NCBI RefSeq assembly: GCF_000970205.1
Contig: NZ_CP009512.1
Location: forward strand, 1,116,001-1,180,000
Source: Methanosarcina mazei S-6
GTDB taxonomy: Archaea; Halobacteriota; Methanosarcinia; Methanosarcinales; Methanosarcinaceae
Length of the DNA stretch: 64,000 bases
Reading direction: 5' to 3'
Shown in pieces: positions 55,256 to 59,103 of this stretch (its first letter is position 1; each line of letters begins with the position of its first letter). A program made the translations under genes and the position numbers. The notes beneath the pieces are model-generated. The model was not told where the DNA came from, did no database searches, and worked only from the letters and a program-made list of their open reading frames with translations.

Positions 55256-56206
55256 TTAATTCCCTCTATAAATTGCACCCAGACATTCACGCGCTTCATT
55301 TATCAGGTAATTCCTGTAATCTCCCTGGTGAAGCCTTGCGGAACGGAGCAGCCCTATACTCATGAAAAAAGGCAAAATTCCGGTAATGCTGTAAAAGTCC
55401 TTTTCCCCGCGGCTGTACTCCCAGAGGAAGTTTCCTATATAGGGCTCGGCTTTCCAGCCTCCCCCTTTGTGCAATTCAAATTCATTCTTAAGTTCTGCAG
55501 TAAGGACCCCGAGGTCTCTTATGGGATGTGCCTCAAACCATGAGCTCTCAAAATCGATGGCATAGGGCTTTTCTTTGCAAAAAATATAATTTGAAGGAGT
55601 AACGTCCCTGTGGACCATACAGCCATGATCCCGGTCGAGCAATGAACTGTACCACCATTCTCCCAGAAGTTTATTGAAAGTCTCTCTCGTGCCGTAATCA
55701 AGTTTAAGGTGGTCCAGAACATCATGAAAGTTTCTGAACTCATTTTCTTTATTGTAAGAAGACTTTGTATTGTCATGTAGATTCCTGAGCATGTGAGCCA
55801 CAGCAGACAGCCTTCCGTAAAGGTCTTCTTCGCGTTTAAGGTACCAGCCAAGAGATTTTCCGGGTATGTGTTCGGTTACAAGGACACAATTGAAGTCTTT
55901 TCTTACTGCAAGAGGCTTTGCAACATTTATTATCGAAGCTGCTTTTTTCAGGTTCCTGTACTCGTTCATCATGCCTTTATAGGGATTGTATGCTTTCAGC
56001 TTGCCTGTCGGTTCGGCAAAGAACTTTGCCATTACGCTGAAATGTTCCCCTTTAAACTGATACCTGCAAACAGTGTGGGAAGAGTTGTATTTAAAAACGT
56101 TTACACAGCATTTTTTATCCCGAATCCTATTTGCAACAACCTCTTCTACAAGCCAGTCCCTGAACGGGTCTCCAGGGTTTAAAGTGTTAACATGGCTATT
56201 TGCCAC
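55256..56206 (-). CDS. Kinase-like protein (APH/RIO-type fold)
   Basis: 316 residues with a protein-kinase-like catalytic loop HRDVTPSN at residues 199-206 and a metal-binding DFE at about 218-220. The N-terminal lobe is less typical, so this is closer to atypical small-molecule or Bud32/RIO-like kinases than to Ser/Thr kinases. Start GTG 56206 with GGGGTAAG. It lies upstream of the HAD paralogues on the same strand and might share their promoter. Substrate unknown. Confidence 0.78.
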   Translation of the reverse strand: MANSHVNTLNPGDPFRDWLVEEVVANRIRDKKCCVNVFKYNSSHTVCRYQFKGEHFSVMAKFFAEPTGKLKAYNPYKGMMNEYRNLKKAASIINVAKPLAVRKDFNCVLVTEHIPGKSLGWYLKREEDLYGRLSAVAHMLRNLHDNTKSSYNKENEFRNFHDVLDHLKLDYGTRETFNKLLGEWWYSSLLDRDHGCMVHRDVTPSNYIFCKEKPYAIDFESSWFEAHPIRDLGVLTAELKNEFELHKGGGWKAEPYIGNFLWEYSRGEKDFYSITGILPFFMSIGLLRSARLHQGDYRNYLINEARECLGAIYRGN

Positions 56207-56932: not shown

Positions 56933-57850
56933 GTGATTAAATTCCCTGATGAAATCCCTGACTCCTGTAAATGGCAAAAAGTCGAGCCCATTAACAGGGG
57001 GTGGTCAGATGATCAGAAATATTATGTCCGAACTACAGACGGCAGAGAACTATTACTCCGAGTATCGGACGTCTCGCAATACGAGAACAGAAAACGGGAC
57101 TTTGAAGCAATAAAACAGCTTGATAAGCTTGATATTTTGATATCGCATCCGGTTGATTTTGGAATTTGTAATAACGGAAAATCAGTGTACTCTTTGCTAA
57201 CCTGGATTAAAGGTAAGGATGCAGAATATCTTCTTCCGAGACTTGACAGAAAAGAGCAATACCAGTTTGGAGTTAAAGCGGGTGAAATCTTAAAAATAAT
57301 ACATCAAGTATCTACGGCAAAAAATCAAATCTCATGGTCGGAGCGGTTTAATCGGAAAATAAACAGAAATATTGCCGCTTATGAAGCTTGCGGGATTCGT
57401 CTGAAGGGAGCAGAGAAGATAATTGAATACATAGAACAGAACCGGTATTTGCTGGATAATCGGCCTCAGTGTTTTCAACATGGTGACTATCATGCCGGAA
57501 ATATGATTATTACAGAGTCTGGAGAGCTGGGAATTATTGATTTTAACAGAGTTGATTATGGTGACCCCTGGGAAGAATTCAACCGTATTACATGGTGTGC
57601 GGATATAAGTGCCTCATTTGCTTCAGGACGCATAAATGGATATTTTGAACACGATGTACCTGCTTTATTTTTCAGATTAATGGCTTTATATATTGCAAGT
57701 AACCAGCTTTCATCAATTCCCTGGGCAATTCAATTTGGATAGAAAGAAGTCAACACAATGCTCAGGCAAGCCGAAACCGTTTTGAAATGGTATGATGGAT
57801 TTGAAACATTCATACCAGAATGGTATAGTTCAAAAAATAACAGGAATTAA
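56933..57850 (+). CDS. APH-family phosphotransferase with in-frame UAG (possible pyrrolysine codon)
   Basis: An aminoglycoside-phosphotransferase-fold protein. The catalytic loop is HGDYHAGN (residues 183-190), with metal-binding D203 in IIDFN and the GDPWEEF segment. The frame meets TAG at 57740-57742 (residue 270) but continues open for another 35 codons to TAA at 57848-57850. The extra residues (KEVNTMLRQAETVLKWYDG and an IPEWY end) look like the C-terminal helix expected of this family. In Methanosarcina UAG can be read as pyrrolysine, and no other complete gene I checked in this window ends in TAG. The alternative is a stop at 57742 (269 residues) or a nonsense mutation. Start GTG 56933; weak ribosome site. 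Confidence 0.75.
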
Positions 57851-57903: not shown

Positions 57904-59103
57904 TCAGGCTTCATCGTATCCTATTTCTTCTTTTGTAAGATAGCAAGCCGGGTCATCCGCCCATACGTTTCCGTATACTGCTTCGGCTCTTACCCTGAAG
58001 TTTCCGTTGCATACATCAAACCATTTGCATTTTGCACATCGGTCTCCGTTAGCCTGGATGAGGGGCTTCCTGTACTTGAGCCCTGCCATAAGTTCGTCAC
58101 TGAGGTCGGTCCAGATCTCGCTGAAAGGTCTTTCCCGCACATTTCCGAAGGAGTAGTGCCTCCAGAACTGGTCGGCGTGGACCGAACCGTCCCAGGAAAC
58201 GCATCCTATCCCTATTCCTGAGGAATTTCCCTGGTTCATTGAAAGGAGCTCAAAAATTTCGGCAGCCCTTTCAGGGTTTTCTTTCAGCATTTTCAGGTAA
58301 ATGTAGGGGCCGTCGCAGTGGTTGTCCACGGTAAGTACTTCTGCAGGGAAGCCTTTTTCGTGCAGTTCCCTGGTCTTTTGCATGATCAGGTCAACAGCCT
58401 TTCTGGAATCTTCAAGAGAGAGGTCTTCATCCACCATTTTCGAGCCCCTGCCGGCATAGACAAGGTGGTAAAAGCAGATCCTGGGGATATTTTCTTTCTC
58501 AAGAAGGTCAAAGATCGCAGGAATATCCTTTACATTTTGTTTGTTGATTGTAAAGCGAAGACCTACCTTTATGCCTTCTTCCTGGCAGTTGTACAGGCCC
58601 CTGAGAGCCGCATCAAAAGCTCCAGACATGCCCCTGAATTTATCGTTAGTCTCCCTTATGCCGTCAAGCGAGATCCCCACATAAGAAAGCCCGACTTCCT
58701 TTAGCTTTTTTGCCAGGTCCTTATCAATGAGGGTGCCATTTGTTGAGATTACAGCTCTCATACCTTTTTCGCGGGCATAGGCTGCAAGTTCGGGCAGGTC
58801 CTTTCGAATAGTGGGCTCGCCACCCGAAAAGAGCATAACCGGGGACCCAAAAGCTGCAAGGTCATCGATAAGGGCTTTTCCTTCTTCTGTTGAGAGCTCG
58901 TTTTTGAACTCTTCATCCTTTGCCTGAGCGTAACAGTGGACACACTTCAGGTTGCAGCGGCGGGTCATGTTCCAGACCACAACCGGCTTTTTATCTTTTG
59001 AAAACTGCAGAAGGTGAGAGGGGAGCTTCTTTGAGTCCCTTCCATAACGAAGGGCGTCAGAAGGTTCCACGGTTCCGCAGTAAAGTTTTGAAATTCCTAT
59101 CAT
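57904..59103 (-). CDS. ahbC: AhbC-type radical SAM protein (12,18-didecarboxysiroheme deacetylase)
   Basis: A 399-residue radical SAM/SPASM-type enzyme. The [4Fe-4S] SAM motif is C-X3-C-X2-C (RRCNLKCVHCY), and a C-terminal cysteine cluster (CAKCKWFDVC and a later C) should bind an auxiliary cluster. The opening MIGISKLYCGTVEPSDALRYGR matches AhbC, which removes acetyl side chains from didecarboxysiroheme to give Fe-coproporphyrin III in the alternative heme pathway. SUMT and a HemD-like gene lie upstream on the same strand, supporting this. AhbD is a related family, less likely here. Confidence 0.87.
   Translation of the reverse strand: MIGISKLYCGTVEPSDALRYGRDSKKLPSHLLQFSKDKKPVVVWNMTRRCNLKCVHCYAQAKDEEFKNELSTEEGKALIDDLAAFGSPVMLFSGGEPTIRKDLPELAAYAREKGMRAVISTNGTLIDKDLAKKLKEVGLSYVGISLDGIRETNDKFRGMSGAFDAALRGLYNCQEEGIKVGLRFTINKQNVKDIPAIFDLLEKENIPRICFYHLVYAGRGSKMVDEDLSLEDSRKAVDLIMQKTRELHEKGFPAEVLTVDNHCDGPYIYLKMLKENPERAAEIFELLSMNQGNSSGIGIGCVSWDGSVHADQFWRHYSFGNVRERPFSEIWTDLSDELMAGLKYRKPLIQANGDRCAKCKWFDVCNGNFRVRAEAVYGNVWADDPACYLTKEEIGYDEA

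Follow-up and report, generated by a model that had tools for sequence, protein, structure and literature searches.

Does an in-frame TAG near the 3' end of a kinase-like gene of Methanosarcina mazei S-6 end translation, or is it at least partly decoded as pyrrolysine (Pyl)? The question arose from a sequence-only reading of a 64-kb stretch of the genome, hereafter the window, in which a kinase frame was seen to run into a TAG (57740-57742) and then to remain open over 35 more codons up to a TAA. Re-reading the frame confirmed this arrangement: the gene starts with GTG at 56933, its coding sequence before the amber codon comprises 269 codons (56933-57739, + strand), the TAG stands in phase as codon 270 (57740-57742, +), and 35 sense codons (57743-57847, +) lead to the TAA (57848-57850, +) that closes a full-length frame of 305 codons. 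The TAG is the single disruption of this frame, whose start region and reading phase are intact.

The encoded protein is a member of the APH phosphotransferase superfamily, with a match to the Pfam profile APH (PF01636) over residues 17-241 that lies well above the curated cut-off (130.5 bits versus 23.2, E 1.1e-37) and with the HGDxxxxN and D motifs of the active site in place. These residues (HGD at 183-185, N190 and D203) all precede the TAG, and H183, G184, D185, N190 and D203 are invariant across the aligned homologues. An identity as aminoglycoside resistance enzyme was considered and rejected, as the score against the NCBIfam equivalog model for APH(3') was far below its cut-off (35 versus 205 bits). 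The top Foldseek matches, 4dca and 4fev, are aminoglycoside phosphotransferases at low identity; the likeness to the APH(2'')/APH(3') enzymes is thus one of fold, whereas sequence identity amounts to about 15-20% and TM-scores mostly range from 0.55 to 0.65. In the AlphaFold2 model of the protein (mean pLDDT 92.8, pTM 0.89) the last helix spans residues 270-286, which places the TAG exactly at its start, and the blocks covering residues 271-300 were modelled with a pLDDT of about 95-97. The 35-codon continuation, which the sequence-only reading had found to resemble the C-terminal helix expected for the family, indeed comprises this helix and the family-invariant tail P295-x-W297-Y298: W286 is found in 52 of 53 homologues, and P295, W297 and Y298 each in all 53. 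Judging from the model and from conservation, the 269-residue form is probably impaired, since truncation takes away the C-terminal helix together with the invariant PxWY residues.

Homologous coding sequence was found on both sides of the TAG, and in the nearest syntenic genome 19 of 20 residues before and 18 of 20 residues after it are identical. When 464 kb of M. mazei were compared with a 520 kb contig from the closest relative, 111 orthologous alignments were obtained, five of which contained stops; the target gene was the only clean case with high identity on both sides, while the other four cases lay near the ends of alignments or where the sequence was gapped or broken several times. 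With a single clean case, this synteny test was discarded as a basis for an interruption rate. Given the identity flanking the stop and the P-x-W-Y tail shared by all 53 homologues, the amber interruption of the APH-fold gene is real and homology-supported and does not reflect a chance extension.

A search of same-genus genomes recovered the orthologue in nine other Methanosarcina with 77-82% identity, all without a stop, and a scan of genome contigs retained 80 loci, mostly from Firmicutes and a few from methanogenic archaea, which partly derive from the same genomes as the genus search. Reading these relatives to their own stops revealed that every one reaching position 270 has a sense codon there and continues through the tail, one contig ending earlier; none ends at the TAG, the outcome that had been named beforehand as refuting Pyl insertion, and TAG at codon 270 occurred in none of the nine Methanosarcina and about 80 loci examined. 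The other Methanosarcina carry CAG, CAA, CAC, AAC or AAT at this codon. An alignment to APH homologues, which had been proposed to identify the residue at position 270, gave mostly Gln or Glu in a variable column: of the 53 homologues, 22 have Q, 17 E, four N, four K, two G and one H, and a few carry other residues. The conservation of TAG among orthologues that is the hallmark of functional Pyl sites was therefore not found, the codon being absent from all other relatives examined. Twelve loci of the Firmicutes set (L023, L025, L033, L037, L041, L044, L048, L058, L059, L065, L067 and L079) are long-frame homologues, and in many Firmicutes the homologue forms the N-terminal half of an open frame of 556-597 aa, the second half of which is apparently a further conserved domain. 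A homologue with about 51% identity was also present in another methanogen family (L092, a Methanocalculaceae archaeon MAG), its best matched frame beginning only at query residue 53, which may indicate a frameshift.

The gene order around the target is common to several Methanosarcina and runs from a second APH-like gene through the target gene to ahbC, hemD and cobA. The neighbour ahbC (57904-59103, - strand) encodes 12,18-didecarboxysiroheme deacetylase (TIGR04546, 789 bits; synteny). The second, very divergent APH/kinase-like gene (55256-56206, -; 316 aa) stands back to back with the target, a position kept in other Methanosarcina. The proposal of a recently arrived bacterial-type gene is contradicted by this shared locus, which instead indicates, on comparative grounds, that the APH-fold gene is old in the genus and vertically inherited.

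Stop-codon usage agrees with the claim that no other gene of the window ends in TAG, at least for ORFs of at least 150 aa, which end in TAA (25), TGA (20) and TAG (1, the target gene). As terminal codon TAG was found in 8 of 289 ORFs of a genome sample and in 10 of 303 ORFs of the 464 kb block that surrounds the window, i.e. about 3%, which is near the TAG share of 4-5% given for Methanosarcina (PMC4153887). These statistics were rejected as a sign of enrichment, the TAG-ended ORFs of the sample being too few. Since TAG is produced by 50 of the 164 one-step nonsense changes possible in the gene, the identity of the stop alone is likewise weak to modest evidence. Compared with the roughly 3% of ORFs that end in TAG in the M. 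mazei block 816001-1280000, the share reached about 10% in contig C16 of ERenArc_MAG2 (G019), which exceeds the usual Methanosarcina range; this genome, too, encodes PylS and an mtmB with TAG.

The host is equipped to decode UAG. When the catalytic domain of its PylS (residues 185-454) is aligned to 2q7e, the structure of the M. mazei PylRS, no difference is visible. A tRNA-Pyl with anticodon CTA was detected upstream of pylS by ARAGORN, and the ORFs following pylS are arranged as expected for pylB, C and D, assignments that are putative and made by position. Two mtmB genes with TAG are present in the same genome, and together with tRNA-Pyl and PylS they bear out for this host the earlier statement that Methanosarcina decodes UAG as Pyl. 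A TAG also terminates the ORF at the pylB position, as reported for M. mazei pylB (PMC2933860). One aRF1 passed the cut-off, and other parts of the genome gave weaker, partial matches. In another Methanosarcina genome (G020) PylS matches in two pieces (C63:2100-2914), which points to a frameshift either of the gene itself or of its assembly.

Taken as a whole, the data are best explained, in our view with fair though by no means full assurance, by a lineage-private nonsense change that is tolerated and partly suppressed with pyrrolysine. In this scenario, a gene for an APH-fold small-molecule kinase would have acquired, in the M. mazei lineage only, one nonsense change at a codon that varies among relatives. 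The simplest origin appears to be a one-step C-to-T transition from Gln CAG to TAG, because CAG is carried by the three Methanosarcina grouped nearest the M. mazei sequence, an origin judged from the tree and its tip codons with the M. mazei sequence placed at a node support of 32%. Pyl-tRNA(CUA) would then compete with the release factor aRF1 at the UAG codon, giving two products: a 269-residue protein that lacks the C-terminal helix along with the invariant PxWY, and a 305-residue one carrying pyrrolysine at position 270, the latter presumably being the active form. Pyl insertion is thought to reflect such a competition between Pyl-tRNA and release factor (PMC9499178). In M. acetivorans, where the PYLIS element is not essential, the apparent efficiency of translating an amber codon placed in a reporter was 20-30% (PMC2933860). 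From this efficiency and the release-factor competition we expect, by analogy, that general suppression probably places pyrrolysine at codon 270 in some rounds of translation, provided that the gene is expressed. A PYLIS-like element or other RNA structure downstream of the TAG was considered and rejected, as the fold z-score of -1.26 was not significant; such an element is not required anyway. Support for tolerance comes from column 270, which accepts Q, E, N, K and H. The suggestion of a tolerated nonsense change fits a TAG private to the M. mazei lineage at a variable column. The parallel suggestion of a pyrrolysine-containing kinase holds in part: the Pyl machinery and the conserved tail speak for insertion, whereas a Pyl-specific function is not supported, since the TAG is private, the sisters carry Gln, His or Asn codons instead and the column is variable. 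From these comparisons, the codon does not qualify as a Pyl site of the conserved or catalytic type.

The main rival to partial Pyl suppression is that the gene is being lost. Here, the nonsense change would have turned a dispensable kinase into a young pseudogene, the truncated protein being degraded and readthrough being irrelevant, which we consider possible but, on balance, rather unlikely. That the gene is dispensable follows from its being missing from 21 of the 30 Methanosarcina genomes searched, some of which are incomplete, and the truncation does remove family-invariant residues. Furthermore, the lineage-private changes amount to 3 amino-acid and 0 synonymous changes in the tail, where the head has 14 and 27, respectively; from such small tail counts, this hints that constraint on the tail may be relaxed. 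A pseudogene would be recognized by multiple lesions or relaxed selection, however, and the gene has one lesion with intact start region and frame. Its pairwise dN/dS values versus the sisters, which mostly reflect the time before the nonsense mutation, are 0.10-0.16 for the head and 0.11-0.50 for the 30-codon tail with its few sites, similar to the 0.06-0.45 of sister-sister tails. These ratios are as low as in sister-sister pairs, although the mutation may be too young for visible decay, and some suppression is to be expected in a Pyl-decoding cell. A codon-usage score per codon (tail 0.05, head 0.04, typical genes 0.17) was dropped as a test of the tail, being uninformative because the tail is as low as the head.

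Alternatively, the 269-residue protein could itself be functional and the tail expendable in M. mazei, as the active-site residues HGD, N190 and D203 would all be retained. We regard this as very unlikely, given that the last helix is modelled with high confidence as part of the domain, that W286 is near-invariant and P295, W297 and Y298 are fully conserved, and that no homologue ends at position 270. A sequencing or culture error would concern the one genome by which M. mazei is represented; the genome is a single contig of 4.14 Mb and the change a plain base substitution with no homopolymer indel, which makes an error highly improbable. A selected Pyl site or regulated readthrough switch that links kinase activity to Pyl supply during methylamine growth, suggested by the Pyl machinery and by the TAG coinciding with the first residue of the conserved C-terminal helix, is scarcely credible for a TAG found in no other species examined, at a variable, non-catalytic position and with no supporting downstream RNA element. 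It likewise appears doubtful that partial suppression has made the full-length kinase active only when Pyl-tRNA is present, tying an unrelated enzyme to the methylamine-linked Pyl system as a first step of amber reassignment.

If pyrrolysine is inserted, the kinase would extend the small set of natural Pyl proteins by a non-methyltransferase. It would then also support the view that, in cells decoding Pyl, nonsense mutations can survive long enough for UAG to turn into a sense codon; without such insertion, the gene would carry an ordinary young nonsense mutation. Among known systems, the methylamine methyltransferases MtmB/MtbB/MttB share the in-frame, read-through TAG in the same genome, but their TAG is conserved across species and their Pyl is catalytic, whereas the TAG of the APH-fold gene is private to one lineage at a variable column. 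Interruptions recognized, as here, from homologous sequence flanking the stop on either side include 16 extra amber-containing genes in 'Ca. M. alvus' (PMC4153887) and 87 read-through ORFs in M. mazei (PMC1242214). The in-frame amber of Thg1, the tRNA-His guanylyltransferase of M. acetivorans, is described in the title of the original work as 'appearance of pyrrolysine by neutral evolution' (Heinemann 2009, cited by PMC2933860 and PMC4153887); both this title and the papers citing it take Thg1 to contain Pyl, while the APH-fold gene is known here from sequence. Both cases involve a TAG in an ordinary gene of a Pyl-decoding Methanosarcina with no catalytic role for Pyl. By analogy, the APH-fold amber thus matches the 'neutral' in-frame ambers reported previously (PMC3639795; PMC4153887), like that of Thg1 in M. 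acetivorans.
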